Positions 18,158-59,424 of a stretch of DNA of 64,000 nucleotides are shown here, piece by piece. Under the pieces are notes generated by a model. That model did no database searches. It saw nothing but the letters and a program-made list of their open reading frames with translations, and was not told the origin of the DNA. This DNA comes from Halobacteriales archaeon YIM A00013. Its GTDB lineage: Archaea > Halobacteriota > Halobacteria > Halobacteriales > Haloarculaceae. The first letter of the stretch is position 1, and every line of letters begins with the position of its first letter. The position numbers and the translations under genes are program-made. The stretch lies in contig JAKCFM010000002.1 in assembly GCA_025041195.1 (NCBI GenBank), forward strand, positions 496,001 through 560,000. The letters run 5' to 3'.

Positions 18158-18601
18158 CTATTCTAGTCTAATTTCTTCTATTGCTATTGTGCTCGATCCA
18201 CCCTGCCAGAAGTTCAATCGGAGCGACAGCGACGAATCAGTACGATCGACGCCGACCGCTTCCAGATCGACCGGCACATCAGTGAAACCCGTGGTGATCG
18301 TATCGTCGGTAACGTTCGACAACAGTGTTCGCACGCCACCCATATCGAAGAGAATGTCGTTCTCTTCGCCCCCGTTCGCACCGCGAAGCCGCAGTACGAG
18401 CGTGGCGTACTCGCTGATCTCCTGATTGAGTTGGGTCTGGAACCAGCCGCCGTTGTCGTACTCCAGGAGTAGCGCGCCATCGCTCACCGATCCACTGCCG
18501 TTTTCGAACGACCCAGCACCACACCACTGGTCCAGATCATTCCGATTGGCCGACCAACCTGGATCGCCGTCGAAATCGTCGATAACCAGCACGTCACCCG
18601 G
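18158..18601 (-). repeat. C-terminal module copy 1 (GH10 gene)
   Basis: Codons for the last 147 residues (582-728). The segment begins PGDVLVIDDF, carries WCGAG and GGWFQTQ, and ends FWQGGSSTIAIEEIRLE. Its DNA is visibly close to copy 2 over most of the length. An FN3 domain precedes it. Confidence 0.9.
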
Positions 18602-20344
18602 TGGATCACCACTGCCGGCGTCAGTCGTTGCCGTCGTAGTAGTCGCAGTCGACTCGTTGCCGGCAGCATCGACGGCCGACACACCAATCGAATAGGTGGT
18701 CTCGGGCGTGAGTTCCGACAGCGTTGTTTGTGTCGTGCCGGCCGGAACCGTCTGTGTGGTCGTTCCATCGACGGTGACGACGTACTGATCAAGCCCACTG
18801 CCACCCGTATCGGTGACTGCCTCCCAGGAGAGCGTCACCGTCTCCGCGGTCGTTTCGGCAACGGAGAGATCGCTGGGGGTAGCCGGCGGCGTCGTGTCTT
18901 CACCAGTTCCATCACCAGAAACCGTCACAGTGACGGCAGTCGGCGCCTCAGCGTCGGTTGCCCCAACGGTGGTGGTTGTGCTGTCGCTGTCGGTACTGAC
19001 GGTGATCTCGTGAGCACCCAGATAAACGTCGGTCGAAAACGTTCCATCCGAATCGGTGAGTCCGCCCTCGCTGGTCCACCACTCGCCAAAAACCAGTTCG
19101 TTCCACACGTCGTAGGCCGGCTTTTGCGACCAGTCCTGATAGAACAGGGGCGCTTCGTTCTCCCAGTGGCGACCATCCCAGAAGCCCCACATGATGAACG
19201 CATCCACGCCGGGATGGCTGAACGCGCCACGAAGATAGTTTTCGAGAACGGTCGCCCGCTCTTCGTCGTCAGTCCAGTCGTCGCCGTTGTACATATCAAA
19301 CTCCGTGATTTTCACGCGCGCGCCGTGGTCAGCCCACTGATTGATCTCGGCTGCGACCTGGCTGGCCGAAATCCTGGCGTCGGGATTCGAATCCGTATCG
19401 TTGTCACCAGTACGCGCTGCCACGTGGGCTTGCAATCCGATCGTATCAAGGTCCACACTCGACTGGAGATGATCAATCTGGGTTTCGTACCGGTTATCCA
19501 CGTAGTCGTAGGCGAACTGGTTGAAGTCGTTGACGCCAACCCCGACGTCGAGATCGTTCGACTCGATCACCGCCTCGGCTGTGGTATACCAGTCAGCGAG
19601 CAACTGAGAGCTCCAGGGGATGACGTCCCCCGTCCAGGGCGCTTCGGTGTCGATCTGGTCGCCATACACACCGCGCTGGAGCTGGTAGGCGTGCATCGCC
19701 TCATTGACAACCTCCCACTCGGTGATGTCCTCGCCGTAGTGGGTGATAATCTCCTCGATGTGTGCCATCGACCGATCGCGAATCGTCTGGGCATCGCCGT
19801 TGTCGATCGCCGTCACCACGTCGTCCGGAATCGCACTGACGCCGTCGCGACCCCAGATGCAGACGTGGCCGCGAAGATCGAGACCTGCCTCCAGCAGCCA
19901 GTCCGTGGCGTCATCTGCCAGCTGCCCTTCCGTCTCGAAAAAGCGCCATTTATGCCGATTTTCGAGCACTGCAGTGTTGAACAGCTCTGGAATGTACGTC
20001 CGGTAGTTCTCACCCACACTGGATTCGTTGAGCAGTGTGTTCGCGTTGACCGCGGTGCCAAAGTCGAAACCGTGTTCCAGCATCGTGATTTCGACCTGTG
20101 CGTCCGGAACGACCGTGCCGTCGTCTCGTTCCACGGTGATCTCAAGCGGTCCCGTTCGGTGATCATCGATCCGTTCGGCCACCGTTTTCGACGTGTCCGC
20201 CGTTTCGCCGGCAGCCGATCCGGTAAGCCCGGCGGTGAGCGCCAACGCACCCACAGTTTTGAGAAACGCCCGCCGATCGAAGCCGTCAGCTGTCTCTGAG
20301 CCATTCGATGTGTCGGTTTGTGGTGATTGAGTAGTATCTGTCAT
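18158..20344 (-). CDS. secreted endo-xylanase, GH10-FN3-C-module
   Basis: This 728-residue enzyme is predicted to cut xylan outside the cell. A Tat signal (FDRRAFLKTVGAL, 22-34) is followed by a short beta region and a GH10 barrel (about 90-420). The barrel has RGHVCIWG, acid/base Glu215 in WEVVNEAMH, nucleophile Glu348 in KITEFDMYN, and IMWGFWDGRHW. Next come a carboxypeptidase-regulatory-like stretch (to about 478), a bacterial-type fibronectin III domain (about 487-575) and the 147-residue C-terminal module (582-728) shared with the four upstream genes. It starts 2 bases after the stop of the GH5 gene upstream, so the two are almost certainly cotranscribed. Confidence 0.95.
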   Translation of the reverse strand: MTDTTQSPQTDTSNGSETADGFDRRAFLKTVGALALTAGLTGSAAGETADTSKTVAERIDDHRTGPLEITVERDDGTVVPDAQVEITMLEHGFDFGTAVNANTLLNESSVGENYRTYIPELFNTAVLENRHKWRFFETEGQLADDATDWLLEAGLDLRGHVCIWGRDGVSAIPDDVVTAIDNGDAQTIRDRSMAHIEEIITHYGEDITEWEVVNEAMHAYQLQRGVYGDQIDTEAPWTGDVIPWSSQLLADWYTTAEAVIESNDLDVGVGVNDFNQFAYDYVDNRYETQIDHLQSSVDLDTIGLQAHVAARTGDNDTDSNPDARISASQVAAEINQWADHGARVKITEFDMYNGDDWTDDEERATVLENYLRGAFSHPGVDAFIMWGFWDGRHWENEAPLFYQDWSQKPAYDVWNELVFGEWWTSEGGLTDSDGTFSTDVYLGAHEITVSTDSDSTTTTVGATDAEAPTAVTVTVSGDGTGEDTTPPATPSDLSVAETTAETVTLSWEAVTDTGGSGLDQYVVTVDGTTTQTVPAGTTQTTLSELTPETTYSIGVSAVDAAGNESTATTTTATTDAGSGDPPGDVLVIDDFDGDPGWSANRNDLDQWCGAGSFENGSGSVSDGALLLEYDNGGWFQTQLNQEISEYATLVLRLRGANGGEENDILFDMGGVRTLLSNVTDDTITTGFTDVPVDLEAVGVDRTDSSLSLRLNFWQGGSSTIAIEEIRLE

Positions 20345-20346
20345 TG

Positions 20347-20790
20347 CTATTCGAGTCTGATCTCTGTTATTTCGAGTGTGCTCATCCCGCCTTGCCAGAA
20401 GTTCAAGCGAAGCGGCAGCGACGAATCAGTACGATCGACGCCGGCCGCTTCCAGATCGATCGCCACATCAGTGAAATCCGTGGTGATCGAATCGTCGGTA
20501 ACGTTCGACAACAGCGTTTGCACGCCACCCATATCGAAGAGAATGTCATCCGCTTCGCCGCCGTTTGCACCCCGAAGCCGCATGATGAGCGTAGCGTAGT
20601 TGCTGATATCTCGATTGATCTGAGTCTGGAACCAGCCGCCGTTGTCGTACACAAGCGTGAGCACGCCACCGGATTCAGTGCCCGCATCGTTAACGAACGA
20701 ACCTGCCCCACACCACTGGCCGAGATCATTTCGATTGGTCGACCAGCCTGGATCGTCGTCGAAATTGTCGATCACCAGTGCAGACGCTGG
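20347..20790 (-). repeat. C-terminal module copy 2 (short GH5 gene)
   Basis: The last 147 residues (446-592), from PASALVIDNF to ITEIRLE, with the same WCGAG, GGWFQTQ and FWQGG landmarks and no length change against copy 1. An FN3 domain precedes it. Confidence 0.9.
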
Positions 20791-22125
20791 TGGATCAGTG
20801 TCGTCGGCCACTGTCGTTGCGGTAGTCGTCGCTGGACTCGACTGATTGCCTGCGCCATCGACGGCGACAACACCGAGCTGGTAGGTCGTCTCTGGTGTCA
20901 GTCCAGTGATGGTGCTTGACGTAGTACCGGCGGGAACGGTGTGCTCGTTCGATCCATCGACAGTCACAACGTACTGTACGACACCGGTTTCTGCATCCGT
21001 GGCGGGCGTCCAGTCAATCGCAACGGTCGTTTCGCCCGTCGTCGTCGTCAGTCCGGATGGCTCGGTTGGAGGTGTGGTATCGGCTGGTGAATCGCCGAGT
21101 TTGGCGTAGACAACATCGAAGTAGTCGCTGGTGGTGTACGAGCTCGCCGAACACGAATCACCCCAGTAGGGATCTGCCATGTTCATCGGCTCGTCGGAGC
21201 CATCACCGTTCCATGCCCAGCCAATCACTGGCCAGCCGAGCGATTTCGCGTGATCGACCACTGCTTCCCAGTCCGTCCCACTCGAACTCGCCGCCCAGTT
21301 CCCGAACTCGCCGATCAGACACGGATAGCCCGTCGCATCGAGCACGTCGAGATGAGAGGGCGAAAGCGCTTCATTGACGTGCTGATTCCACCCGCTAGGG
21401 TAGACATGAACCGAACAGATGAGGTTCGAATCGTCGATCATCGTCGTTGCCTCTGCCAACCGATGGGTCTCTTGACCCCAGCCTGGCGCGTCACAGACGA
21501 TCGGGCCATCGTACCCCACCCCCGAGCGAATCGTTGAGAGGGCTTCGTTGTAGGCACTCGCGTACTGATCGGCCGTAACGGTGTGATCACCCCACTCGTT
21601 CATCAGATTGATCGTGATCGAGGAGTCCTGCGTGAGATAGTCGTAGTGGTCCACCCACCACTCTGCAGCCGACTGGAGTGGGCCAGCATCAGGGGCGCCG
21701 TTGTCCGGATAGTGGTGGTAGCTGGCGATTACGTCGTAGCCGTTCGTCGTGGCTTCATCGATCCACCGCTTTGCGTCATCGCGAGTCGTGACTACTTCGT
21801 CGAACGAAAACGGCTCGATCTCGATGCGAACCGTCTGTATGGCTGGATACTGGTTCATCAGCCCCCATCCCAACTGCTGGTCGCCGCTACAGAAATACGA
21901 CGGCTGGAGATTCACTCCGTCGCCGAACGATGCGCCGGTGGCGCTCGTCGAACCGATTCCAGTGAACCCGAGGACCACCCCACCGGCCATTCCCTTCAGA
22001 ACTGACCGCCGTGACGTGCTCGCCCGTGCGAAGTGACACGACGCTTTCGTCGGTTCACTCTGGTTTTTAGTCGTCGCCCCAGTACTCGGTGACGTATCGC
22101 TGGTGTTTGGGTTTGTTTGTTGCAT
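20347..22125 (-). CDS. secreted GH5 beta-glycanase, GH5-FN3-C-module
   Basis: The 592-residue product has a Tat signal (TSRRSVLKGMAGG, 37-49) and a compact GH5 barrel (about 65-345). The acid/base is Glu177 in INLMNEWGDH and the nucleophile Glu273 in LIGEFGNWA, with SVHVYPSGWN between them. The short barrel and the motif wording are closer to mannanase-like GH5 branches than to the two larger GH5 enzymes of this cluster, so beta-mannan or cellulose are the likely substrates. An FN3 domain (about 352-440) and the shared C-terminal module (446-592) follow. Its ATG overlaps the stop of the GH12 gene by one base (TAATG), and its stop lies 2 bases before the GH10 gene. Confidence 0.9.
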   Translation of the reverse strand: MQQTNPNTSDTSPSTGATTKNQSEPTKASCHFARASTSRRSVLKGMAGGVVLGFTGIGSTSATGASFGDGVNLQPSYFCSGDQQLGWGLMNQYPAIQTVRIEIEPFSFDEVVTTRDDAKRWIDEATTNGYDVIASYHHYPDNGAPDAGPLQSAAEWWVDHYDYLTQDSSITINLMNEWGDHTVTADQYASAYNEALSTIRSGVGYDGPIVCDAPGWGQETHRLAEATTMIDDSNLICSVHVYPSGWNQHVNEALSPSHLDVLDATGYPCLIGEFGNWAASSSGTDWEAVVDHAKSLGWPVIGWAWNGDGSDEPMNMADPYWGDSCSASSYTTSDYFDVVYAKLGDSPADTTPPTEPSGLTTTTGETTVAIDWTPATDAETGVVQYVVTVDGSNEHTVPAGTTSSTITGLTPETTYQLGVVAVDGAGNQSSPATTTATTVADDTDPPASALVIDNFDDDPGWSTNRNDLGQWCGAGSFVNDAGTESGGVLTLVYDNGGWFQTQINRDISNYATLIMRLRGANGGEADDILFDMGGVQTLLSNVTDDSITTDFTDVAIDLEAAGVDRTDSSLPLRLNFWQGGMSTLEITEIRLE

Positions 22126-22568
22126 TATGAGAGATGGATCGATTGGATGGCGAGCGTGCTGTTTCCACCCTGCCAGAAATTCAGTCGGAGGGAACTGGAC
22201 GGATCCGTTCTGTCAACGCCAGCTGCAGTGAGATCGACCGTGAGATCAGAAACTGTCGTTCCGATCGAACCGTCAGTGACAGTTGCGAGCAACGTCCGGA
22301 CGCCACCCATATCGAAGAGAATATCGCTCTCTTCGCCGCCGTTCGCACCCCGAACCCGCATGACGAGCGTGGCGTAATCGCTGATATCGCGGTTGAGCTG
22401 CGTCTGGAACCAGCCACCGTTGTTGTACTCCAGGAGTAGCACACCGTCGCTCACCGATCCACTGCCGTTTTCGAACGAGCCTGCCCCACACCACTGGCCG
22501 AGATCGTTCCGATTGCTCGACCAGCCTGGATCGCCGTCGAAGTCGTCGATTACCAGCACATCGCCCGG
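22125..22568 (-). repeat. C-terminal module copy 3 (GH12 gene)
   Basis: The last 147 residues (320-466), beginning PGDVLVIDDF like copy 1 but ending IQSIHLS, and varying most around LATVTDGSIGTTVSDLTVD. A TPT-type linker precedes it instead of FN3. Confidence 0.9.
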
Positions 22569-23525
22569 TTGCTCAGTGTCGGTCTGGGTTTCCGTTGGCG
22601 TGTTCGTCTCTGTCGGCGTGTCGGTGGCCGTTGGGGTGGGCGTCGGCTCTCCGTCGCTCCCCGAGTGATACGTTGATCCGTTGATCGTGACATCGAACGT
22701 TTCGTAGGTCATCTCACCGACGGCGTTCTGCCAGTACTCGCTGCCGAGTTCGATCCCAGAGACGTAGAGATCCTCTCGAACGCCATCGGCCGTCAGATAG
22801 TCGACGATCTCGGTCATGTCGATCTTGCCGCCGTCGTGGCCGTCCTGGATGCGGAAAATATAGAAATAGGCGTCCGTTCCACCGGAGTCGTAGGTCGTCC
22901 ACAGATCGACCGTGTTTCCAAACTGGTCGGTCCAGGCCGCTTCGTCCTGAACGGAACCGTGATTGTGACCACCACCCCAGTCGAGCAACAGCATCACTTC
23001 ATACTGGTGGGTTTCGGGCTGCTGGCTCGGTGGCTGTTCGAGCAGCCACCACTCTTCGGCCCAGTCCCACTCGCCGTTGCCCATCGAATAGCTGGCCGCA
23101 ACGTCGATGACCAGCTCATCGATATCCCCGCGCTGGATTGGAAATTCCGGAATCCCGGTGTCTGATCCCCAGGGCCTGGTTCCGGCGAACACCTCGGGAT
23201 AATTGATTCCTCCACCGGTGTTTCTCGCGTCGAACTCGTAGCCGTAGCTACCGTCGTCGTTGCGCCAGATGCACTGCTCTGCCGCGGGATTGCCCCATTC
23301 GTTGCCGATCAGCGAAAAGCCATCGCTGACGGAAATCGATCCCTCGCCGTTGCAGATTGCTTCAACCTTCTGTCCCATGGCTGTCGATCCATACCCAACC
23401 AGGAGACTGCCTGCCCCTAGCGCGGCGCCGGCCTTCAGGAACGTGCGCCGTGACGGCCGTGATACGCGTGTCGGTGGTTTCTCCTCGGTCGGTCTGTCGG
23501 TGTCGTGTATATCGTCCTGTGGCAT
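22125..23525 (-). CDS. secreted GH12 endoglucanase with C-module
   Basis: From the ATG at 23525, preceded by GAGAGG, the product is 466 residues; an in-frame start at 23579 adds 18 residues before the Tat signal (SRRTFLKAGAALG). The catalytic part (about 57-285) has GH12 features: NEWGNPAAEQCIWR, then PIQRGDIDELVIDVAASYS. The nucleophile strand is YEVMLLLDW (Glu176) and the acid/base strand GIELGSEYW (Glu259). GH12 enzymes cut beta-1,4-glucans or xyloglucan. A TPT-rich linker (about 293-318) leads to the shared module (320-466). It overlaps the next GH5 gene by one base. A TATA-like TATATTT near 23672 may start this part of the run. Confidence 0.86.
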   Translation of the reverse strand: MPQDDIHDTDRPTEEKPPTRVSRPSRRTFLKAGAALGAGSLLVGYGSTAMGQKVEAICNGEGSISVSDGFSLIGNEWGNPAAEQCIWRNDDGSYGYEFDARNTGGGINYPEVFAGTRPWGSDTGIPEFPIQRGDIDELVIDVAASYSMGNGEWDWAEEWWLLEQPPSQQPETHQYEVMLLLDWGGGHNHGSVQDEAAWTDQFGNTVDLWTTYDSGGTDAYFYIFRIQDGHDGGKIDMTEIVDYLTADGVREDLYVSGIELGSEYWQNAVGEMTYETFDVTINGSTYHSGSDGEPTPTPTATDTPTETNTPTETQTDTEQPGDVLVIDDFDGDPGWSSNRNDLGQWCGAGSFENGSGSVSDGVLLLEYNNGGWFQTQLNRDISDYATLVMRVRGANGGEESDILFDMGGVRTLLATVTDGSIGTTVSDLTVDLTAAGVDRTDPSSSLRLNFWQGGNSTLAIQSIHLS

Positions 23526-23688
23526 CGTAAAACCTCTCGTAATTCGTGTTTTGCGTTCTCCACTGCCACGCCGACCCACAGTGCTCGATCGGACGGTGGT
23601 GTGTGAGTGGGCGTTTCTCGGATGTGACAGTGGTGTCCTGTGTCCGTTTGTTTCAAATCTACAGAGAGAAATATAGCCGCGAGTGTGA

Positions 23689-24132
23689 TCAGGCCAGGAA
23701 GATTTCCTCGATTTCGAGCGTGCTCGTGGCGCCTTGCCAGAAGTTCAGGCGCAGCGAGATTGACGACGCCGTGGTGTCAACCCCAGCAGCATCCAGATCA
23801 ACGCCAACGTTCGAGAAGCTCGTGGTGATCGAATCGCTGGTGACAGTCGAGAGCGGCGCTCTGACGCCCGGCATGTCGAAGACGAACTCGCTCTCTTCGC
23901 CGCCATTTTCGCCTCGCATCCGCATGACGATCATCGAATAGTCGCTGATATCCTGGTTGACCTGCGTCTGGAACCAGCCGCCGTTGTCGTACACAAGCGT
24001 GAGTACGCCGCCGGATTCACTGCCTCCACCGTTTTCGAACGATCCGGCACCACACCACTGGCCGAGATCGTTCGAGTTCGTCGACCAGCCCGGATTCCCG
24101 TCGAAATCGTCGATCATCAGCGCATCACCCGG
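23689..24132 (-). repeat. C-terminal module copy 4 (Thr-linker GH5 gene)
   Basis: The last 147 residues (520-666), from PGDALMIDDF to IEEIFLA. It is the copy with ENGGEESEFVFDMPGV where the others read ANGGEE/ANGGEA and FDMGG or FDMAG, yet it has no insertion or deletion. Confidence 0.9.
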
Positions 24133-25689
24133 TGGCTCCGTTGGTGTTGGTGAGGGGCTGGTTGTGGTTGTTGTGGTCGTCGAAGTCGTGGTCGTGGTGT
24201 CGGTGGTGGTCGTCGTCGACGTCGCCGTTGGCGTTGGCGTCCCGTCATCACCACCGGGCAGATCATCACTCTGGTGCTGGGCGAGATACTCACGCCACCA
24301 CTGACCGGGACGGGCCTCGTAGTCCCAGATCTCCCAGGTGCCGTCCTGACTGGTATCGTGCTGGAAAAACGCCGGCTCCCAGGTGTGATCGAAGTTCCAG
24401 CAGATCGGATGGACCGGATAGTTTTCGAGGAACTGCTCGAAACCCGGCGCATACTCCGAGGCCGTCCCTTCGAGGAATGCGAAATCGTCCTTGCCACCGC
24501 CTTCTGCCCAACCGAACTCGCTGAAGAAGATCGGGACCTCCTGTGCGGGTTCGCCGAAATACGTCGACAGCGGCCGCATCGAGTCGTGCGTGTAGACGTG
24601 ACCGGTGTAACAGATGTTGTCGCCCGAAAATTCGTTCTCTGGGGCCCAGTAGGTGTACTGGCTCCATCGCGGTGACCCGATCGTGACCAAATTCTGCGGA
24701 GCATTCTCCTGAACAATGTCGACCCAGGGCTGGGCCCGTTCGACCCACATGTCCCAGTACGCCTTGGACTCGGTATTTGTCACGTCGGTGTCGTCGCCAC
24801 CTTCGTCGTTGCCATCATGCGGGAGTGAATCGGGGGCCCCCCAGTCACCAGCGTACGGGCCAGTGGGCTCGTTGTACACGTCGTACAGGACGTGCGAGCG
24901 ATTTGCGTATCTTGGAGCGACGAAACTCCAGTACATTCGGAGTTCGTCATCGAGCGCAGCGGCGTACTCCTCGGTGTAGCCGTCGAGTTCTGCAGCCTGG
25001 TCTTCCGAGTGCCAGAGCACGCCTCGCTCGCCACAGAAGCCGATATCGTTGGGAAAGCTCTCGTTCCCACACTGATACTCGCCGAGATCCGCCTCGTGCT
25101 GGGGCTGATGGAAGATCGGAAAATGCCGGTGATAGTCGATCATCACGTAGAGCCCTTGTTCCTCGGCTGCATCGACCAGCGGGTCGATATAGGTGTTGAA
25201 GTACGTCTCCAGATCCGCCTGGCTGAACTGACCGGGCAGCAGTGGCCCCCAGTCGTCACCATGGGCCATCTGCAGGCTGTTGTTCACACCACTGATGTCC
25301 TGTGGCTGCGTCGGAATCCGAATAATCCGATTGTACCAGTCCTCGTCAGTGTTCGTTGCCTTCTCGAACACCGCCACCGCGTCTTTGCTGCGCCAGCTCC
25401 TGGCCAGCCGCGCCGGATCCGCAATGTTCACCCCCCGGAGAATCACCGTGTTATCGCTGGGATCTTTGATCAGATTGCCATCTCGGTGAAGCCAGGGCGT
25501 CGGAATGCCAACCGCTGACACCGAGCTGACCAGCGCATCTGCGAACCCGAGCGTGAGCGCCCCAGCGCCGGCCGCCTTCAAAACACTCCGTCGGGTGAAT
25601 CGGCTCGTGTGTGTGGTCGTTTGTGTTGTCGATTCCGTCGATTGAACCGTCTCTCCGCTGTCCGTTGTATCGTCCGTGTTGTGTGTCAT
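23689..25689 (-). CDS. secreted GH5 endoglucanase with Thr-rich linker and C-module
   Basis: The start is the ATG at 25689, 7 bases after the upstream gene's stop; longer readings run into that gene. The 666-residue protein has a Tat signal (FTRRSVLKAAGAG, 31-43). A large GH5 barrel (about 62-480) opens with TPWLHRDGNLIKDPSDN and LRGVNIADP. Acid/base Glu274 lies in LYDVYNEPTG and nucleophile Glu391 in FFSEFGWAEGG. A threonine-rich linker (about 485-519) joins the shared module (520-666). The best guess is a cellulase. The barrel is a clear paralogue of the enzyme encoded just upstream, but with several insertions holding extra cysteines (YQCGNESFPNDIGFCG). Confidence 0.92.
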   Translation of the reverse strand: MTHNTDDTTDSGETVQSTESTTQTTTHTSRFTRRSVLKAAGAGALTLGFADALVSSVSAVGIPTPWLHRDGNLIKDPSDNTVILRGVNIADPARLARSWRSKDAVAVFEKATNTDEDWYNRIIRIPTQPQDISGVNNSLQMAHGDDWGPLLPGQFSQADLETYFNTYIDPLVDAAEEQGLYVMIDYHRHFPIFHQPQHEADLGEYQCGNESFPNDIGFCGERGVLWHSEDQAAELDGYTEEYAAALDDELRMYWSFVAPRYANRSHVLYDVYNEPTGPYAGDWGAPDSLPHDGNDEGGDDTDVTNTESKAYWDMWVERAQPWVDIVQENAPQNLVTIGSPRWSQYTYWAPENEFSGDNICYTGHVYTHDSMRPLSTYFGEPAQEVPIFFSEFGWAEGGGKDDFAFLEGTASEYAPGFEQFLENYPVHPICWNFDHTWEPAFFQHDTSQDGTWEIWDYEARPGQWWREYLAQHQSDDLPGGDDGTPTPTATSTTTTTDTTTTTSTTTTTTTSPSPTPTEPPGDALMIDDFDGNPGWSTNSNDLGQWCGAGSFENGGGSESGGVLTLVYDNGGWFQTQVNQDISDYSMIVMRMRGENGGEESEFVFDMPGVRAPLSTVTSDSITTSFSNVGVDLDAAGVDTTASSISLRLNFWQGATSTLEIEEIFLA

Positions 25690-25696
25690 TTTCAGT

Positions 25697-26140
25697 TCAT
25701 TCGAGATAGATGTGTTCGATGTCGATCGTACTGGCACCGCCCTGCCAGAAGTTGAAGCGAAGCGAGCCAGACGACGCCGATCTGTCGACGCCAGCCGCCG
25801 CAAGATCGACGGCTACATTCGAAAACTCGGTACTGATCGAGTCGTCGGTGACGTTCGCGAGCAGCGTTCGCGTGCCGGCCATATCGAAAAGCAGTTCGCT
25901 TTCTTCGCCGCCGTTCGCACCGCGAACGCGGATAACGAGCGTGGAGTACTCGGTGATCGCCTGGTTGATCTGGCTCTGGAACCAGCCGCCGCTGTCGTAT
26001 TCGAGTGTGAGGGTGCCGTCGGATTCGGTGCCACTGCCGTTGACGAACGACCCAGCACCACACCACTCACCGAGATCGTTCGAGTTCGTCGACCAGCCAG
26101 GGTCGCCATCATAATCGTCGATCACGAGCGCGTTTGCGGG
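25697..26140 (-). repeat. C-terminal module copy 5 (first GH5 gene)
   Basis: The last 147 residues (542-688), from PANALVIDDY to IEHIYLE. It has WCGAG and FWQGG but GGWFQSQ in place of GGWFQTQ. An FN3 domain precedes it, as in copies 1 and 2. Confidence 0.9.
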
Positions 26141-27763
26141 TGGTTCGGTCGTCTCGTCGCCATCGTCATCGGGCGACGTCGTCGCGGACACCGTTACGAC
26201 GCCTGATTCGTTGCCAGCACCATCGAGAGCTGAGACGCCGACGGAGTAGCTGGTATCAGGGCTGAGTCCTGCAAGTGTTGCGCTCGTGGTCCCCACAGGA
26301 ACCGTCTGTGTCTGTTGTCCATCGACGGTGAGGAGATACGAATCGACACCCGTACCGCTGTCGCTCGACCCGTCCCAGCTGACCGTCACGGAACTGGCCG
26401 TCGTCTCTGTCACGGTGAGATTCGATGGCGGTGTTGGTGCTGTCGAGTCTTCATCATCACCACCGTCGTCGCCTGGAATGCCGTCGTTACGGTAGTCGTT
26501 GAGGGCGGCTTTCACATCGTCACCCATCGATCCTGGACCAGTGGTAAGCGACCACTCACAGGGCCGGTCTGGACAGTCCGTTGGCACCGTCCCGTTGTAC
26601 GGATCACCGACAGAATCGTCTGCGTTGTCTGCGAACGGTCGATCGAACATCACCGGCTGCCAGACCGGATCAGCGACCCAGGCGGTCCAGTGGATGGCGT
26701 TGTGACTTTCGAGCCAGTCGAGGAACGGCACGCCGAATCCTGCATCCGTGCCACCGATATACTGACCAGCCCCCTCCGCCCAGCCAAACTCCGTGACGAA
26801 CAGCGGTGCCTGCTCGTAAACGCCGGCGACGCCCTCGCCGTTGTTCGTTGCATCCTCCCAGTCATTTTGCTGACTGGAGTTGTGCCCGGGATAGATATGA
26901 TAGGTGTAGGCGATATCCTCTCCGTCGAACTCCTCGACGAGTGCGCCTTCCGGACTCTGTGACCAGCTGGGCGAGCCCATCAGGATGAGATTGTCCGCGT
27001 GTGAGCGGATCGTATCAACCCAGGGCTGGGCCATCTCTAGCCAGAGCTGCCAGATGTCTGCGACCCACTGCGTTGTCGTCGGATCGTTCCACATTCCTGG
27101 CTCCTGGGGTTCGTTGTACACCTCATAGAGCACGTGCGATTCATCCGCGTATCTGGGGGCCACAACGTCCCAGAACAGATTCACCTCGTCCTGGAGTGCC
27201 GTGTTCACTGGCCCCGATTGACCCTCCGCCCACGACACATCACGGTGTCTGTGGTAGTCGATGATGCAGTAGACCCCGCGCTCGTTACAGCGCTGGACGG
27301 CCGCGTCGAGGTGGTCGTCCATGTAGCTGATGAGCTCTGCCTCCGTGAACGCAGGGATTGGTGGCCCAGAACCCGGCTCGTACTCGCCGATGTCAACTGG
27401 CTGAACCGGCAACCGAATCACCCGTGGATACCAGCCGTTCGACGTGTCCGTCAGGCTGTCGATCACCTGCACCGCAGTCATTCCCCTGGCCGGGGCCGTT
27501 ACGTCGATTCGTTTTGGATCTGCAATGTTCAACCCTCGAAGGGTCACTCGATTCCCGTCCGGATCACGGAGCAAATTCCCGTCTCGGTGAAGCTGTGGGG
27601 TTGGTATCTCTGCCGCGTTCGCCGTCGAGACTGCACCCGTCCCTAACAGCGCTATGGAACCGGTCGCCGCCGTCGCCCGGAGAAAATCCCGGCGGGACGC
27701 GCCCAGTCCTGTGCCCAGAGAGCTCGATTCCTCGGTCGTTCGATTGGTACTGTTGTCACTCAT
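25697..27763 (-). CDS. secreted GH5 endoglucanase, GH5-FN3-C-module
   Basis: The first gene of the glycosidase run. From the ATG at 27763 it encodes 688 residues; an ATG at 27820 is possible because TATA-like sequences lie at 27826-27831 and 27855-27861. A Tat signal (SRRDFLRATAATG, 23-35) precedes a GH5 barrel (about 52-440) with TPQLHRDGNLLRDPDGN, LRGLNIADP, acid/base Glu218 in LYEVYNEPQ and nucleophile Glu325 in LFVTEFGWAEG. An FN3 domain (about 445-535) and the shared module (542-688) complete it. The predicted role is cellulose or mixed-glucan hydrolysis outside the cell. The neighbouring GH5 gene starts 7 bases after its stop. Confidence 0.92.
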   Translation of the reverse strand: MSDNSTNRTTEESSSLGTGLGASRRDFLRATAATGSIALLGTGAVSTANAAEIPTPQLHRDGNLLRDPDGNRVTLRGLNIADPKRIDVTAPARGMTAVQVIDSLTDTSNGWYPRVIRLPVQPVDIGEYEPGSGPPIPAFTEAELISYMDDHLDAAVQRCNERGVYCIIDYHRHRDVSWAEGQSGPVNTALQDEVNLFWDVVAPRYADESHVLYEVYNEPQEPGMWNDPTTTQWVADIWQLWLEMAQPWVDTIRSHADNLILMGSPSWSQSPEGALVEEFDGEDIAYTYHIYPGHNSSQQNDWEDATNNGEGVAGVYEQAPLFVTEFGWAEGAGQYIGGTDAGFGVPFLDWLESHNAIHWTAWVADPVWQPVMFDRPFADNADDSVGDPYNGTVPTDCPDRPCEWSLTTGPGSMGDDVKAALNDYRNDGIPGDDGGDDEDSTAPTPPSNLTVTETTASSVTVSWDGSSDSGTGVDSYLLTVDGQQTQTVPVGTTSATLAGLSPDTSYSVGVSALDGAGNESGVVTVSATTSPDDDGDETTEPPANALVIDDYDGDPGWSTNSNDLGEWCGAGSFVNGSGTESDGTLTLEYDSGGWFQSQINQAITEYSTLVIRVRGANGGEESELLFDMAGTRTLLANVTDDSISTEFSNVAVDLAAAGVDRSASSGSLRFNFWQGGASTIDIEHIYLE

Positions 27764-27958
27764 GATGGTACCCACCCATCGTCCGCTGCTGTAGTCACGC
27801 AATTCTGCGTGGTACGTCATTGTATGATATACTCCAATCTATTAATTCTTACTACTATATACCTCTGGAAAATGAAATATAGACCATGGAGATGGTGGTC
27901 AGTCAGTTCGAGGTGGTCACTCCTTGACCGCCGTCCGTGCTATACAGCGGCGAAGCAT

Positions 27959-29059
27959 TCAGTCCGTGACCTGGGATGTCGGGGTTATTGCACCGGTTTC
28001 GACGAGCGATTCGAGTGGATGGTCTGCTATCGAGAGCGGGAGATCAATCCGTTCGCGCCGACGGACCGATTCGTAGCCGGCGAACAGAATTTCCGCCGTG
28101 TTGAGGCCGATCCGCCCGGATAATGTCGACTCCCGCCCGGTTTCCAGTGCGGTGAGCATCTCGTCGATTGCCCGGGAGTGGAGTCGAGAGCCGTAGAGAT
28201 CGCTATCGGCGGGCGTGTGATGAATCGATTCGCCATCCACGTCGATCGGCGACGTTTTCCCGTCTTGTGTGAGTTCGAGCGTGGCTCCATCGGTGGGATC
28301 GATGGCGATCGTGCCATCAGTTCCCCGAAGCACCATCGTCGCGTCGACGAGCTGGCTGGCCTCGCCGGTGGCGAGCATCCCGTGGACACCAGAGTCGTAC
28401 CGCCATTGTGCCCACATCTGATTTTCCTGGTGGGTACCAAAGCGAACGTCCTCGGAGTGGTAATCCAGCTGGGCGATAACCCACTCTGCTGGCCGTTCGC
28501 CGACGAACATCCCGGCGAGATCGACCGTGTGAGCACCGGTGTCGAAAAAATCACCCCAGCCGATTTCGATGCGCTCTAGCGTGCCGATTGCATTTGCATC
28601 GAGCAAGGCCTTTGCTTCTGTGAACGGCTTTGAAAACCGGCGCTGGCGATTGAAAGTGAGTTGCGTTCCGGTCCGCCAGGACGCCTGGACCAGCCGCTGT
28701 GCACCCAACCAGGTGTCGGCAATCGGCTTCTCGCAATGGATTGCCTGTACGCTGTCGTGTGCGCCACACTCCGTGACGACGGCTTCATGGGCTGACGGCG
28801 GGACGGTGACGCTGACGATCTCCGGCGCAAGCGAATCGAGCATCGTTGCAGTGTCGGTAAACACTGCCGAATCCGGGAGATCGAACTCATCGGCAAACGC
28901 AACCGCGTGCTCCTCGATCAGATCGACACACCCTACGAGTTGACACTGGTCATTCGCTCGATACGCTTCTGCATGCCGGTATCCCATCGCGAACCCCTCC
29001 ACCGTCGGAGTGGCCGGATCGGGACCGGTTCCAATGATTGCTACTGTGTGCTGACTCAT
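27959..29059 (-). CDS. Gfo/Idh/MocA-family oxidoreductase
   Basis: The 366-residue protein starts at the ATG at 29059, chosen because a TATA box lies 29 nt upstream; the open frame extends further but without family similarity. An N-terminal Rossmann fold (VAIIGTGPDP) and the conserved HCEKPIADTW (the EKP lysine) mark NAD(P)-dependent sugar or inositol dehydrogenases. The WGDFFDTGAHTVDL segment supplies the usual C-terminal-domain histidine. It probably oxidises a sugar released by the neighbouring glycosidases. It is divergent from a sugar isomerase-like gene with which it shares the promoter region. Confidence 0.87.
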   Translation of the reverse strand: MSQHTVAIIGTGPDPATPTVEGFAMGYRHAEAYRANDQCQLVGCVDLIEEHAVAFADEFDLPDSAVFTDTATMLDSLAPEIVSVTVPPSAHEAVVTECGAHDSVQAIHCEKPIADTWLGAQRLVQASWRTGTQLTFNRQRRFSKPFTEAKALLDANAIGTLERIEIGWGDFFDTGAHTVDLAGMFVGERPAEWVIAQLDYHSEDVRFGTHQENQMWAQWRYDSGVHGMLATGEASQLVDATMVLRGTDGTIAIDPTDGATLELTQDGKTSPIDVDGESIHHTPADSDLYGSRLHSRAIDEMLTALETGRESTLSGRIGLNTAEILFAGYESVRRRERIDLPLSIADHPLESLVETGAITPTSQVTD

Positions 29060-29084
29060 CCGCACAGTAACACAGAGTGTACCT

Positions 29085-29120
29085 GATAAATAGCAATTTC
29101 GTTCCAGGAATACATATTTA
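29085..29120. promoter_or_regulatory. face-to-face TATA boxes of a divergent leaderless pair
   Basis: TATTTATC on the minus strand (29085-29092) is centred 29 nt from the ATG at 29059. ATATTTA on the plus strand (29114-29120) is centred 27 nt from the GTG at 29144. Both genes should be leaderless. The two boxes are only about 22 nt apart, so their pre-initiation complexes would compete or be jointly controlled. Confidence 0.65.
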
Positions 29121-29143
29121 TCATCGGAGACAAAACGGCAACC

Positions 29144-29863
29144 GTGAGCTCTACAGCAATCCAGTTGTACACGCTCCGAGAGATCGATCACCCATTGCCC
29201 GTGTTGCTCGAGCGAATTGGGGAGACTACCATCGACGGCGTGGAGTTCGCGCATCGATTTGATGAGAGCGACACTGCGGCGGTGAACAGAGTACTCGAAC
29301 GGACCGGCCTTGCGGCGGTCGGTGCGCACGTCGACATCGAGCGGCTCGAAACCGATCTTGAGGGCGTTATTGAAGCGTACAGTGCTGTCGGTTGTGATAC
29401 GTTCGTCGTGCCGTGGCTCGATCCGGAGGCGTTTACGGCCGACACGATCGAGGAGACTGCAACGAGACTTTCCGCGCTCGCTCAGGACGTTGACGCAGCT
29501 GGCGCGTCACTACACTACCACAATCACGACCACGAACTTCGGGAACTCGGCACGTCGACAGGACTGGAACTGCTCATCGAGCAGACCGACGAGGCCCTCG
29601 GATTCGAATTCGACATCGGCTGGATCGAAGCCGGAGGGGGTGATCCCGTCGAACTCCTCGAACGGTACGGCGATCGGTGTGACCTCCTCCACGTTACCGA
29701 CTGCGATAGTGAAACCCGAACTCCCGTTGAAGTAGGAACTGGCGACGTTGCGATTCAGGAGTGTCTCACCGCGGCCGACCGCTCCGTGCATGTGTATGAG
29801 CACGACGAACCGGTGAATCCGCTCCAGTCGCTCGAAACCGGCGCAGCCATCCTGAATCGATAG
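29144..29863 (+). CDS. sugar phosphate isomerase/epimerase-family TIM barrel
   Basis: The GTG at 29144 is supported by a TATA box 27 nt upstream. The 239-residue protein resembles the xylose-isomerase-like/AP endonuclease 2 superfamily: IQLYTLREIDHPLPVLLERI at the start, DGVEFAH, and the metal-binding strands SLHYHNHDHEL, FEFDIGWIEAGG, LLHVTDCD and VHVYEHDEP with the expected His, Asp and Glu residues. Such enzymes isomerise or epimerise sugars and inositols, often alongside Gfo/Idh/MocA dehydrogenases like the divergent neighbour. The substrate is unknown. Confidence 0.85.
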   Translation: MSSTAIQLYTLREIDHPLPVLLERIGETTIDGVEFAHRFDESDTAAVNRVLERTGLAAVGAHVDIERLETDLEGVIEAYSAVGCDTFVVPWLDPEAFTADTIEETATRLSALAQDVDAAGASLHYHNHDHELRELGTSTGLELLIEQTDEALGFEFDIGWIEAGGGDPVELLERYGDRCDLLHVTDCDSETRTPVEVGTGDVAIQECLTAADRSVHVYEHDEPVNPLQSLETGAAILNR

Positions 29864-30373
29864 GGTACAGTTCACCCCCTCCATTGTTTGAGTGTATCTA
29901 ACACAATATCACCGTGGATTCTTGCTCGTATCAGTAATTGCCTGACAGGCCAGTCGCCACACGATCACAAACGCAAGAATGGTACGAACACCGTCGTTTT
30001 ACACTGTCAAACGCAATCCACACCCCGTGTTACATCCGTACATGTGTAACGGACATGTAATCAGGAATCGTGGTCAATGTCCCGTTACGCGTGAGAGTAT
30101 CAATCAATCGATTCGGATTACTACCGTGTTTCGACACTCGAAACTGTAATTGACAGTATCAAACAGCTCCATGAGGGTGGCGTACCGTTGTACAAAATCA
30201 AACGAGCGACCGTGTTAGGCCACGGAAACAACTGGTTTGGAGACGAATGCCGGTAACAAGGAACATTCGACGCACGGCAAAGCCCCCGGGGATTGATCGT
30301 CGGTGACGCGTGTGGAGATAGTCCTCAGGTTGACGTTTCCATCGCGTGAACGCCCGGTTCATCAGTTGAGCAA
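29864..30373. other. about 510 bases without a supportable gene
   Basis: No open frame has haloarchaeal composition. A short frame around 30139-30256 reads like coding sequence (DSIKQLHEGGVPLYKIKR) but lacks a start and a recognisable family, so it may be a relic. No RNA gene was recognised. Confidence 0.45.
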
Positions 30374-30607
30374 TTAGAACGATCGGCGGCGGCGATAACT
30401 GTAGGCGAACAGAACGACGGTCGTTCCTCCAGCAATCACGATAAGTCCGATATTTATCAGTCCGAGCCGATACGACGCCGTCCCCGGCGTTCCAAACGCC
30501 AGCGGGACGAGCGAGAGGACGAGCATACAGGTGAGAAACGCCAGCAGAAGGACTCCATACGCGCGTTGTTCGTAAACGTACGCCCAGAACGAATCTACCC
30601 AGGACAT
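30374..30607 (-). CDS. small two-helix membrane protein
   Basis: This 77-residue protein has two hydrophobic helices (about 18-38 and 48-68). They are separated by GTPGTASYRLG, and the tail is basic (SYRRRRSF). Composition and helix spacing are convincing, but no family or function is recognisable. It is divergent from the Opp/Dpp-type transporter operon, with a 117-base gap holding promoter-like AT-rich sequence. A transporter-associated role is possible only by position. Confidence 0.6.
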   Translation of the reverse strand: MSWVDSFWAYVYEQRAYGVLLLAFLTCMLVLSLVPLAFGTPGTASYRLGLINIGLIVIAGGTTVVLFAYSYRRRRSF

Positions 30608-30724
30608 GACTATGTGTTTGGGTGAAATCGTATGAATATTCGTATCTACTGCGTTAGAATATCAACGATTGGTGTTATTACCATAACATTTATTGTCCAG
30701 TGTGTCTCGTAGTTAACGTGTAAC

Positions 30725-32530
30725 ATGGTAGAGACCGACGCAAGCCGACACATGCAGTTGAATCGGCGTCGATTTATCGAACTGAGCGGCGCGGCAGGTG
30801 CGATTTCGCTAGCTGGGTGTGCAGATCTCGTAAATAATGACGGGAGTGGAACAGATGGAGGTGGTGGAGGTGGGTCTGGAAGCCGTCACATCAGTATGAC
30901 GAATAAGATCCCTTCGGAGCTCCAGTGGAACAACTCCAATCCGTCTACCCGCGCGGAGATCTCCAGACGCGCCATCTTCGACAGATTCGTGGCGTACAAC
31001 ATCAAAACCGGGGAGTTCGAGGGATACGCGATCTCCGACTGGTCGCATGACGGAAGTTCGTTCGAACTGACGGTTCGAGAGGATCTCACCTGGGAGAACG
31101 GCGACGACGTGACGGCCGAAGACGTTGCCACCCAGTTGAACCTCGGGCTGAAAACCGGTGCATCGTACGCCGGTTACACCGAAAGCATCGAGGCATCCAG
31201 CGAGAAGACGGTGACGTTCACCTTTAACTCCGAGCTCGGTGAGCAGATTCCCAAATACGACATCCTCGCTGCCCGGTATCTCCATCAGAAAGCGAGCGAG
31301 TTCGGGAAGTTCCTCGATCAGATCGAGGAAGACGAAGAGGCCGGACTGCAGGCACTCACCGAATTCGCGTACTCGGAGCCGATTGCGAGCGGTCCCTGGA
31401 CGATCGAGAGCAAAGACCAGCAACAGCTGCTGTTGACAAAACGAGACGACCACCCTGATTCCGGGAACATCAATTTCGACGAGTACGTCTTCAAATACTA
31501 TGAGGATAACAACTCGGTGTATCAGGCCCTGAAAAACGACGAAATCGACTCGGCGTTCAACCTGTACGCTTCGCCCGACGTCGTGGAATCGTTCCCGGAG
31601 AACTTCATGCAGGTCCAGACGCCGGGAGCGTGGGGCTACGGGTTGATTCCAAACCATGACCATCAGCACATGGGTGATCGTGCGGTCAGACAGGCAATCC
31701 AGTACGTGATCAACCGCAAGCAGGTCGTCGAAAACGTCTCTGCGGCCTCGAAATCGGTGCCGCCGTATCCAGTTGGAATCCCCTCCTCGAAACAAGAACA
31801 GTGGATCGGAGACCATACCGACGCCTTCGACGATTACGGCGCTGATAGCAGCGCGACGGACAAAGCGACGACAGTGCTCGAAGACGCTGGCTACGCGCAA
31901 CAGGACGAAAACTGGGTGGATTCCGATGGTAATGTCGTCGAGATCCCAATTATCGAGCCAAGTGGCTGGAATGACTGGAACGATGCGACGAAAACGATCG
32001 TCGACCAGCTCAGTTCATTTGGCTTTGCGGCGAGTTCGGAGTCGCGCGATTACGGGACGCTGACCGACACCGTCTGGCCGAATAGCGAGTTTGCCATCAC
32101 CACCGGCGGGTGGCTTGATGGCGTCCCACAGGGGATCTATCCGTACTTCTCGCTTCACCACCAGCTGGTGAAAAATTCCCGGGGATTTTCGTACAACTAC
32201 GCGGCAGCTGATACAACCCGTGGTGGCGACCGTGGTGAGGTGACGGTGCCAGCGATGGACGGCTCTGGCGAGCTGACCATTACTCCGTCCGACCGGCTGG
32301 ACGAGCTTGCGGTCGCGTCTGATGAATCGACGGTCACCGAAATTACGGTTGAACTCGCGTGGGTGACCAATCAGGACCTCCCGATGGTGCCCGTTATGGA
32401 GAAGATGGGACAGTCGTTCATCGACGCCCAGGGCGAGTGGAGCGTGCCCGAAGAGGGAACCGACTCACTCGGCATCAGATATCCGAACACCTGGCTCCCA
32501 CGAACTGGCGAGCTGGAGTACACGGGCTAA
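30725..32530 (+). CDS. ABC substrate-binding lipoprotein, family 5 (Opp/Dpp type)
   Basis: The 601-residue protein has a Tat motif (NRRRFIELSGAAG, 13-25) and a lipobox ending at Cys32, then a glycine-rich tether. The body has family 5 features: a DWSHDGSSFELTVREDLTWENG segment split by short loops, VTAEDVATQLNLGL, and ASGPWTIESKDQQ. It begins a five-gene operon. Family 5 systems import peptides, but several archaeal ones (for example the Pyrococcus cellobiose system) import cello- or xylo-oligosaccharides. Given the cellulase and xylanase cluster nearby, oligosaccharide uptake is the more likely role (inference). Confidence 0.92.
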   Translation: MVETDASRHMQLNRRRFIELSGAAGAISLAGCADLVNNDGSGTDGGGGGGSGSRHISMTNKIPSELQWNNSNPSTRAEISRRAIFDRFVAYNIKTGEFEGYAISDWSHDGSSFELTVREDLTWENGDDVTAEDVATQLNLGLKTGASYAGYTESIEASSEKTVTFTFNSELGEQIPKYDILAARYLHQKASEFGKFLDQIEEDEEAGLQALTEFAYSEPIASGPWTIESKDQQQLLLTKRDDHPDSGNINFDEYVFKYYEDNNSVYQALKNDEIDSAFNLYASPDVVESFPENFMQVQTPGAWGYGLIPNHDHQHMGDRAVRQAIQYVINRKQVVENVSAASKSVPPYPVGIPSSKQEQWIGDHTDAFDDYGADSSATDKATTVLEDAGYAQQDENWVDSDGNVVEIPIIEPSGWNDWNDATKTIVDQLSSFGFAASSESRDYGTLTDTVWPNSEFAITTGGWLDGVPQGIYPYFSLHHQLVKNSRGFSYNYAAADTTRGGDRGEVTVPAMDGSGELTITPSDRLDELAVASDESTVTEITVELAWVTNQDLPMVPVMEKMGQSFIDAQGEWSVPEEGTDSLGIRYPNTWLPRTGELEYTG

Positions 32531-32589
32531 CCACCGGATAGAATCGAATACGAACACTCACCGAGTACACATTCCATTTCGATGAACGA

Positions 32590-33597
32590 ATGACCAACTA
32601 CTACTTGCAACGCACTGCCCGTGCGATCCTGACGATCTGGGTCGTTATCACGGCCACCTTTGGGATGATTCGGCTGCTTCCCGGTGGACCACTGGCCCAA
32701 CTTGAGGCAAAGCTCCTCCGGCAGGGTGTGCCGGCGGGACAGGTGGATGCGATGTTGCAGACGTATCAGAACGTCCATCCAGACAAACCAATCGAAGTAC
32801 AGTACATCGACTACGTTGTGGCGCTATTACAGGGTGATCTCGGGACATCGATCTCGCGAAACAAACCGGTAATGTCGATCATTGCTGACGCCCTGCCGTG
32901 GACCATTTTCGTCATGGTGACGGCAACGTTCCTGATCTTTGCGATCGCAATCGTCTGGGGCGCACTGATGGCGTATCGAGAGGGCGGATCGTTCGATCTA
33001 TTCTCGTCGGCCGCCTCGATTGTGCTCTCTTCAATTCCGTTCTACGTCATCGGTATTGCGCTCATCATCGTCTTTGGCTACCAGCTGGAGCTGTTGCCCA
33101 CGGGCTATCGCTCGACATCAGGTATCGATCCAGAGTCTGGGCTGTTGGTGTTTTTCCTTGACGCACTGGATCACGCGTATCTCCCCATTCTGTCGATGGT
33201 GCTCGCAGGTGTCGGACTGCAGGCGCTTGCAATGCGAGGCAACGCAATTCAGGTGCTCGGCGCAGATTACGTGCGCGTTGCCCGGCTCCGTGGACTCCCA
33301 GATCGGCGGGTTGCCGTTCGATATGTGGCCAGAAACGCCATTTTGCCGATGTACACCGGATTTCTGACGCTGATTGGGTTCAATCTTGGCGGATCAGTGA
33401 TTCTCGAAGAGGTGTTCAACTACAACGGGATCGGCTACTACATGTTTCTCGGCCTCGATAACCGGGATTATCCGTTGATGATGGGGATTTTTCTCATCAT
33501 CACCACGGCACTGGTTATCTCGGTGTACGTCGCGGATCTGACGTACGGACTGATCGATCCACGGATCACAACGGGTGAGTCAAATGAAACCTACTGA
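32590..33597 (+). CDS. ABC permease, DppB-like
   Basis: The 335-residue integral membrane protein has an N-terminal helix (AILTIWVVITATFGMIRLL), a conserved entry region GDLGTSISRNKPV and five further helices. The coupling loop runs through ADYVRVARLRGLPDRRVAVRY, followed by GGSVILEEVFNYNGIGYYMF, which is typical of DppB/OppB proteins. It forms the translocation pore with the next gene. It sits 59 bases after the binding protein and overlaps or abuts the DppC-like gene. Confidence 0.93.
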   Translation: MTNYYLQRTARAILTIWVVITATFGMIRLLPGGPLAQLEAKLLRQGVPAGQVDAMLQTYQNVHPDKPIEVQYIDYVVALLQGDLGTSISRNKPVMSIIADALPWTIFVMVTATFLIFAIAIVWGALMAYREGGSFDLFSSAASIVLSSIPFYVIGIALIIVFGYQLELLPTGYRSTSGIDPESGLLVFFLDALDHAYLPILSMVLAGVGLQALAMRGNAIQVLGADYVRVARLRGLPDRRVAVRYVARNAILPMYTGFLTLIGFNLGGSVILEEVFNYNGIGYYMFLGLDNRDYPLMMGIFLIITTALVISVYVADLTYGLIDPRITTGESNETY

Positions 33598-34645
33598 GAC
33601 GGATGGCGGCGAGCAACCGTCAATTGTCGCAACTGCTACCGATGAGGATGGGTCCTTTTCGTTCGAATACGACGACGACGACATCGAAATAACGCACCGA
33701 GAACGGGCGCGAGAGCTGTTCGATGAGTTGATCTACAAGCCTGCAATCGTCGCGGTGAAAGATCGGCGGACCGTCATCGGAGGGCTGATATTTCTAGGCT
33801 ACCTGCTGATGGGTTCTGTCGGCGTGCTGTTCTATCCAGCTCCCACGTCGAATCAGGTTGACCGATCGATCGCACCATTCTCCACGATGGACGCGCCACT
33901 CGGCTCGACGGCCATCGGTGAGGACGTGCTCTCGATGATTATTCATGCGACGCCGGAGATGCTCCAGATGATCTTCGCTGGGGGTATCTTCGCGACGGGC
34001 ATCGCGACGCTGATCGGCACCGTCGCCGGATATAAGGGTGGGCGCATCGATCGCGCAATCACGTCGTTTTCGGACGCGGCGATGTCGATTCCTGGGTTGC
34101 CGTTGATTATGGTGCTGGCAGTCGTGTTCCGGCCATCGAACCCGTGGGTGATCGGTGTATTGCTCACGATCAACTACTGGGCTGGCTTGGGTCGGTCCAT
34201 TCGATCACAGGTGTTGACGCTGCGGGAAGCGCCCTACGTCGAAGCCTCACGGACGATGGGCGTGAGTACGTGGAGAATTCTCCGCAAGGACATCATTCCA
34301 AATCTCATGCCGTTTATACTCGTGAACTTCGCCAACGCAGCCCGGTATGTGGTGTTCACATCCGTCGGCCTCTACTATCTGGGAATTCTGCCAACATCCG
34401 TCGAGAACTGGGGACTCCAGCTCGATGTGGCGTACAAAAACGCTGGCGCGCTCGTGGCTGATGGCAATCTCTACTTGCTCGTCTTTCCCATGGTCGCGAT
34501 CATGGGCATTGCGCTGTCACTGATTCTGTTGGCACAGGGACTCGATCGCGTCTTCAATCCACGGGTCAGAACTCGACTCGCCGGAGAATCAGAATCGATC
34601 ACAGACGACGCTGACGAGCAACGCTCCACGGAGCTGATTCACTGA
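33584..34645 (+). CDS. ABC permease, DppC-like
   Basis: This 353-residue permease starts at the ATG at 33584, overlapping the upstream stop by 14 bases and preceded by GGGTGAG; a GTG at 33575 would add three residues. It has an acidic cytoplasmic N-terminus (EYDDDDIEITHRERARELFDE, two runs) of about 60 residues, longer than in bacterial DppC. A helix, an exterior loop with PLGSTAIGEDVLS, and the EAA-type coupling loop EASRTMGVSTWRILRKDIIP follow. It pairs with the DppB-like protein. Its final base is the first base of the next gene's start codon. Confidence 0.93.
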   Translation: MKPTETDGGEQPSIVATATDEDGSFSFEYDDDDIEITHRERARELFDELIYKPAIVAVKDRRTVIGGLIFLGYLLMGSVGVLFYPAPTSNQVDRSIAPFSTMDAPLGSTAIGEDVLSMIIHATPEMLQMIFAGGIFATGIATLIGTVAGYKGGRIDRAITSFSDAAMSIPGLPLIMVLAVVFRPSNPWVIGVLLTINYWAGLGRSIRSQVLTLREAPYVEASRTMGVSTWRILRKDIIPNLMPFILVNFANAARYVVFTSVGLYYLGILPTSVENWGLQLDVAYKNAGALVADGNLYLLVFPMVAIMGIALSLILLAQGLDRVFNPRVRTRLAGESESITDDADEQRSTELIH

Positions 34646-36761: not shown

Positions 36762-36792
36762 ACGGTTTGTGTGTGGGAAGTAACACGAACCC

Positions 36793-37872: not shown

Positions 37873-37941
37873 GTTTCCCTTTTCTGTCAAAATTATTTCC
37901 GTTATAAGAGATTATTTAGTGCGGGTCCTGTAGCTACTGGT

Positions 37942-59396: not shown

Positions 59397-59407
59397 AGAC
59401 TGTGTTG

Positions 59408-59424
59408 GTTGCCACCGTGGCAAC
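59408..59424. promoter_or_regulatory. inverted repeat just upstream of the GH32 gene
   Basis: GTTGCCA-CCG-TGGCAAC is a perfect 7-bp inverted repeat lying 12-28 nt before the ATG at 59396. Position and centre (CCA..TGG) resemble the palindrome before glpR, so it may be an operator for the same or a related regulator. Confidence 0.5.

Follow-up and report, generated by a model that had tools for sequence, protein, structure and literature searches.

Halocatena salina and Actinarchaeum halophilum YIM 93972 are congeners of the genome that supplied the window analyzed here, the whole stretch of 64,000 nucleotides. On its minus strand, at positions 18158 to 27820, lie five tandem glycosidase genes, each of which ends in an identical type of C-terminal module. 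A first-pass annotation, made from the sequence alone, had proposed five consecutive glycosidase genes with the catalytic order GH10, GH5, GH12, GH5 and GH5, and this order was borne out by Pfam.

18158..20344, minus strand: gene 1, Tat signal (RRAFL), GH10 (~19109-20074; PF00331, E 3.9e-33), fn3 (~18638-18880; PF00041, E 5e-12), module
20347..22125, minus strand: gene 2, Tat signal (RRSVL), GH5 (~21202-21783; PF00150, E 6.7e-19), fn3 (~20827-21060), module
22125..23579, minus strand: gene 3, hybrid gene, Tat signal (RRTFL), GH12 (~22680-23129; PF01670, E 5.1e-6, barely past the cut-off), Thr/Pro linker, module
23689..25803, minus strand: gene 4, Tat signal (RRSVL), GH5 (~24391-25203; PF00150, E 1.7e-17), Thr-rich linker, module
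25697..27820, minus strand: gene 5, Tat signal (RRDFL), GH5 (~26672-27466; PF00150, E 2.2e-29), fn3 (~26201-26431; PF00041, E 4.7e-14), module
18158..18601, minus strand: module copy 1, 147 aa, C terminus of the GH10 enzyme
20347..20790, minus strand: module copy 2, 147 aa, C terminus of a GH5 enzyme
22125..22568, minus strand: module copy 3, 147 aa, C terminus of the GH12 enzyme; source, the module of a lost GH5 neighbor
23689..24132, minus strand: module copy 4, 147 aa, C terminus of a GH5 enzyme
25697..26140, minus strand: module copy 5, 147 aa, C terminus of a GH5 enzyme
27959..38715, strand not specified: rest of the utilization locus, a Gfo/Idh/MocA oxidoreductase, a sugar isomerase-like TIM barrel, an ABC transporter, a second Gfo/Idh/MocA oxidoreductase and an IclR regulator

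The twin-arginine motifs given above stand at the front of all five proteins, and the catalytic motifs NEP/NEW/NEA and TEF/SEF/GEF are visible in the GH5 and GH10 sequences. In the window enzymes, no hydrophobic or transmembrane segment was found after the signal, nor any C-terminal anchor or sorting motif following the module. For gene 4, an ATG near 25689 is a more likely start than the listed TTG, which overlaps gene 5. The ABC transporter is of the SBP_bac_5 oligosaccharide type, with a binding protein, two permeases and two ATPases. Judged by gene content, the five genes and their neighbors probably constitute a polysaccharide utilization locus, and H. salina has the same gene order around a glycosidase set of different composition. 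Beside the cluster lies a malectin-domain protein whose linker is a long (Pro-Thr) repeat (15813-16655, plus strand), and a malectin protein occupies the corresponding place in H. salina; the utilization locus is adjoined by a subtilase of 1674 residues with CARDB and carboxypeptidase-regulatory-like repeats (38791-43815, minus strand). The window also holds a second polysaccharide enzyme, which is without the module, a GH32 (fructan-type) enzyme with a ricin-type beta-trefoil lectin domain (57375-59423, minus strand), and a strong match to the actin-like protein of haloarchaea, salactin (11135-12202, plus strand; PF25229, E 3e-161), flanked by an MMPL-type transporter and leucyl-tRNA synthetase.

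The five module copies align over 147 columns with zero gaps and, counted from the conserved V/M-ID onward, are 68 to 79% identical in pairwise comparisons, a likeness far above chance; the window genome holds no further copy. The first-pass annotation had described 147 residues without indels and a set of fixed landmarks. Constant length holds for the five window copies but not family-wide, since the length varies between 133 and 148 residues among 96 distinct members, and the 147 residues comprise a homologous module of 142 residues (from V/M-ID) and 5 linker residues before it. The landmarks generally hold, but copy 4 begins MIDDF instead of VIDDF. Among the 46 sequences of the window subtype, W16, N21, D22, L23, W26, C27, W53, Q57, N130, F131 and W132 are invariant. 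Q57 and C27 vary in the other module subtypes and are therefore candidates for subtype-specific function. Cys27, which lies in the WCGAG motif, is the sole cysteine of this secreted module; it has no partner, yet it is kept in all 46 members.

Two checks proposed in the first-pass annotation, a Pfam HMM search and a structure prediction, were run. Searches of Pfam and NCBIfam with the five window proteins and 77 members gave no family match for the module; the 77 members yielded sub-threshold Pfam leads only, to CBM60 (E 0.004), CBM11 (E 0.0047) and CBM30 (E 0.051). Module profiles retrieved nothing real from the sequences of the PDB, no homologue was found in viral contigs and phages, and the open-access papers searched contained no description of the module. 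The earlier remark that the module was not recognizable as a named CBM family was thus borne out for Pfam, NCBIfam and PDB sequences. The module appears to be of a known kind, a CBM on a glucanase, with a sequence family unnamed in Pfam and NCBIfam. Its designation as a new CBM family is provisional, being judged against those two libraries; CAZy numbering of CBM families stood at or beyond CBM112 by 2026 (PMC13357471).

Structure prediction (AlphaFold, AF2) from a 77-sequence alignment gave a confident beta-sandwich (pLDDT 96.3, pTM 0.91). The best match of this predicted model in a Foldseek search of the PDB was CBM30 (1wzx; E 2.3e-5, probability 1.00, TM 0.58), followed by CBM8, a xanthanase, CBM11, a mannanase, CBM4, CBM29, CBM86 and CBM15. 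These results uphold, for a predicted structure, the galactose-binding-like beta-sandwich suggested earlier. TM-scores to solved CBMs were 0.5 to 0.6, which indicates similarity at the level of fold only, and the matches also include a complex I assembly intermediate and reelin, so the fold is present in non-sugar-binding proteins as well. Fold matches in BFVD were uninformative. Together, the Foldseek ranking and the sub-threshold Pfam leads support fold-level kinship to type B CBMs, but not membership of those families.

CBM30 (PF21582; Clostridium thermocellum Cel9D-Cel44; PDB 1wzx, 1wmx, 2c24), which binds cellulose/beta-glucan by way of conserved tryptophans, is the best structural match, and the predicted model shares its fold; both are beta-sandwiches on secreted cellulases of GH5/GH9-type systems. 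In sequence, however, identity is 18%, the lowest E value among the 77 members fails the curated Pfam cut-off, the five full proteins have no match, and the module is ~25-30 residues shorter. PF21582 was not found in 295 genomes of the phylum, a search in which no positive control matched either. CBM11 (PF03425; PDB 1v0a, 6r31) resembles the module in fold class, in its beta-glucanase context and in the occasional presence of fn3, but identity is 10 to 12%. Membership of CBM11 is not supported, as the Pfam lead is below the cut-off and hhalign against one archaeal CBM11-like domain gave a probability of 1.7. CBM4, CBM15, CBM29 and CBM86, type B beta-sandwiches that bind single beta-glycan chains, match at the level of fold, whereas identity is 10 to 14% and the searches run gave no sequence-profile match.

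The company that the module keeps is that of a CBM. GH5, GH9, GH10 or GH12 domains were present in 18 of 23 scanned module proteins, some of which also contain CBM3 or CBM6; the other five have no recognized catalytic domain. As is general for CBMs, the module forms a separate domain without catalytic function, joined to carbohydrate-active enzymes, with a sharp recombination boundary at its start, and its partners favor the CBM-like role, with presumed carbohydrate binding, put forward in the first-pass annotation. Its position varies, with C-terminal, N-terminal and internal copies. Within the archaeal family the module occurs in 21 of 146 genomes and 5 of 22 genera (136 matches, including a few fragments). 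A sample of 393 genomes from the phylum adds two clear occurrences, both outside this family in another one. All 20 family genomes with GH12 carry the module, and GH5 was found in 32 of the 146, including all 21 module genomes. Co-occurrence of module and GH12 gave a Fisher P value of 1e-23 by genome, which ignores shared ancestry, the genomes not being phylogenetically independent, and of 3.8e-5 by genus (5 of 5 genera shared). In these tallies two genomes of the genus, G002 and G006, are to count as one, since they share an identical contig (C1:1092256-1097923); one of the two is probably contaminated or redundant. Of the other genome labels, G001 coincides with locus L009 of CP071307, and the H. 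salina plasmid NZ_CP096020 corresponds to the coordinates of G003.

Outside the archaea, the actinomycete Nonomuraea gerenzanensis has a DUF4832 and fn3 protein with the module at its end, 42% identical to the window GH12 copy over 98% of the length (E 6e-20). Confirmed or predicted growth on cellulose has been described for Halosimplex, Halomicrobium, Halorhabdus and Halococcoides (PMC10267330), and the module-bearing genera, some of whose names were inferred, agree with these cellulose-growing haloarchaea; the literature searched gave no report of Halocatena growing on cellulose. A published cellulase, Huta_2387 of Halorhabdus utahensis (PMC3102087), possibly belongs to the module enzymes.

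Two further sets of module proteins were observed in other genera. At or near cluster ends there recurs a protein with a Tat signal, an N-terminal module, a Thr/Pro linker and ~390 residues in which Pfam finds nothing and many His/Asp are invariant (GHWNNPHRP, GHPQRD, NHDEPYHMRT). The protein is possibly an undescribed enzyme; the AF2 model of these residues is poor (pLDDT 47). In a Halococcoides-like genome, the C termini of module proteins match dockerin type I below the threshold, and the short proteins of L067 and L073 are barely more than a module with an EF-hand/dockerin-like tail.

L066:17273-19195, plus strand: N-terminal-module protein
L074:12628-14505, plus strand: N-terminal-module protein
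L075:15174-17012, plus strand: N-terminal-module protein
L077:3692-5632, minus strand: N-terminal-module protein
L067:3342-5276, plus strand: N-terminal-module protein
L068:1799-5209; L069:3076-5388; L070:1781-4414; L067:2425-3438; L073:3018-3797: dockerin-like module proteins

We consider it highly probable that the module is a non-catalytic CBM with a CBM30/CBM11-like fold, which would tether secreted glucanases to insoluble plant polysaccharide and whose tandem copies recombine. It is best read as a putative unclassified type-B-like carbohydrate-binding module. The Tat-secreted, free beta-1,4-glucan and xylan hydrolases of one locus would then all be held on one insoluble polysaccharide of plants, for which cellulose or mixed-linkage beta-glucan is the likeliest candidate, by a binding face predicted to include the invariant residues Trp26, Trp53, Gln57, Asn130 and Trp132 (module numbering 1-147). 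A different ligand, hemicellulose (xylan or glucomannan) or a wide range of beta-glycans, is possible but rather unlikely. It would suit the copy on the GH10 xylanase-type enzyme, the presence among the Foldseek neighbors of the xylan binders CBM15 and CBM86 and the mannan/glucan binder CBM29, and the weak Pfam lead to xylan-binding CBM60. However, the majority of copies are on glucanase-type enzymes of GH5, GH9 and GH12, the association with GH12 is complete, and the best fold match is CBM30.

In the tree and by identity, modules group by genome or lineage and not by enzyme. Modules on different catalytic domains are 92 to 97% identical within each of H. salina, G005 and G002 (dS 0.19 to 0.27, the range that separates the modules of two GH5s and the GH12 in H. 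salina), and G005 and G002 show the pattern independently. Orthologous module pairs of H. salina and G005, in contrast, differ by dS 0.70 to 0.86, with 0.56 to 0.69 for the catalytic parts. In most pairs of paralogues, identity leaps from ~0.3-0.6 to 0.95-1.00 at the module start; in the pairs s4-s3 and t5-t4 it rises earlier, within the last 20 codons ahead of the module. These observations amount to concerted evolution in which the module is what recombines, and gene conversion, which would even out the copies in the related species, is the probable route. As in the gene-conversion concerted evolution of tandem repeats, paralogues within a genome are closer than orthologues between species; the unit here, unlike in tandem repeats, is one C-terminal domain on non-homologous or distant catalytic domains.

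The first-pass annotation had offered recent shuffling or strong constraint as causes of the constant length. Shuffling and homogenization were seen directly, but constraint is moderate: in four truly orthologous pairs, module dN/dS was 0.15 to 0.38, compared with 0.08 to 0.18 for the catalytic parts, and was the higher of the two in each pair except w2-a2, where they were about equal. These values suggest moderate purifying selection on the module. Strong constraint was rejected as the main cause, since module dN/dS is generally not below that of the catalytic parts, and constant length is therefore better explained by common ancestry and exchange.

The window GH12 gene bears the mark of such an exchange. 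Compared with its YIM 93972 orthologue, it has 92% nucleotide identity upstream and 74% in the module, whereas its module shares 87% identity with the module of the adjacent YIM 93972 gene, a GH5 (L059:9840-11777), a counterpart of which is absent from the window genome. By blastn against YIM 93972, two collinear blocks, at window positions 18158-22547 and 22155-28500, lie ~1.9 kb apart in YIM 93972 and overlap inside the GH12 module only.

22155..22547, minus strand: block overlap inside the GH12 module, the place of recombination, with ~1.9 kb removed

Past the GH12 stop, the window sequence matches that past the YIM 93972 GH5. The catalytic part of the lost GH5 has relatives, 68 to 74% identical, in Halosimplex-, Halomicrobium- and Halorhabdus-type clusters and in two other Halocatena genomes, which makes loss from the window lineage the simpler direction of change. 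The window GH12 gene is thus a hybrid, in which a ~1.9-kb deletion between two module copies dropped a GH5 and handed its module to the GH12 enzyme. One exchange between two module copies accounts jointly for the gene number, the hybrid and the intact frame.

That within-genome similarity reflects repeated recent acquisitions from outside, and not homogenization of resident copies, seems improbable. Transfer does happen, as the homologue in a distant bacterium indicates, but the copies in each genome are nearest one another, the Halocatena catalytic parts remain orthologous and syntenic, and resident copies alone suffice for the hybrid GH12. Anchoring is a further alternative. Bacterial surface-anchoring modules usually have the layout of one shared C-terminal module across many secreted enzymes, as is the case here, and the first-pass annotation had named the cell envelope as a possible shared surface. 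That the module fixes all five enzymes to the envelope or S-layer is very improbable, however: a haloarchaeal or S-layer anchor would combine C-terminal position with a transmembrane or sorting signal, and no such signal follows the module, copies occur at the N terminus and internally, genomes without these glucanases also lack the module, Nonomuraea has a different envelope, and the fold neighbors include glycan binders. Least probable of all is that the module serves protein-protein contact, for example dimerization through the lone Cys27 invariant in the window subtype, or salt stability without glycan binding, since other subtypes share the architecture without a conserved Cys27 and the invariant Trp, Gln and Asn and the CBM fold neighbors suit glycan binding better.

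Polysaccharide hydrolysis by archaea is almost unknown (PMC10267330). The grip of secreted enzymes on an insoluble substrate in brine would be accounted for by a common, unclassified binding domain, which would also provide a salt-stable binding tag. The module is also a clean example of domain-level concerted evolution, testable from sequence alone. Near-identical copies in tandem allow the module DNA to recombine in frame, and this recombination would keep the same tether on every enzyme. Tentatively, we propose a new haloarchaeal/actinomycete CBM family whose tandem copies may act as in-frame recombination cassettes that, through gene conversion and unequal exchange, hold one specificity on all glucanases of a locus and make new enzyme-module combinations. 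If this proposal is true, the binding target of an archaeon's entire cellulase set could change together.
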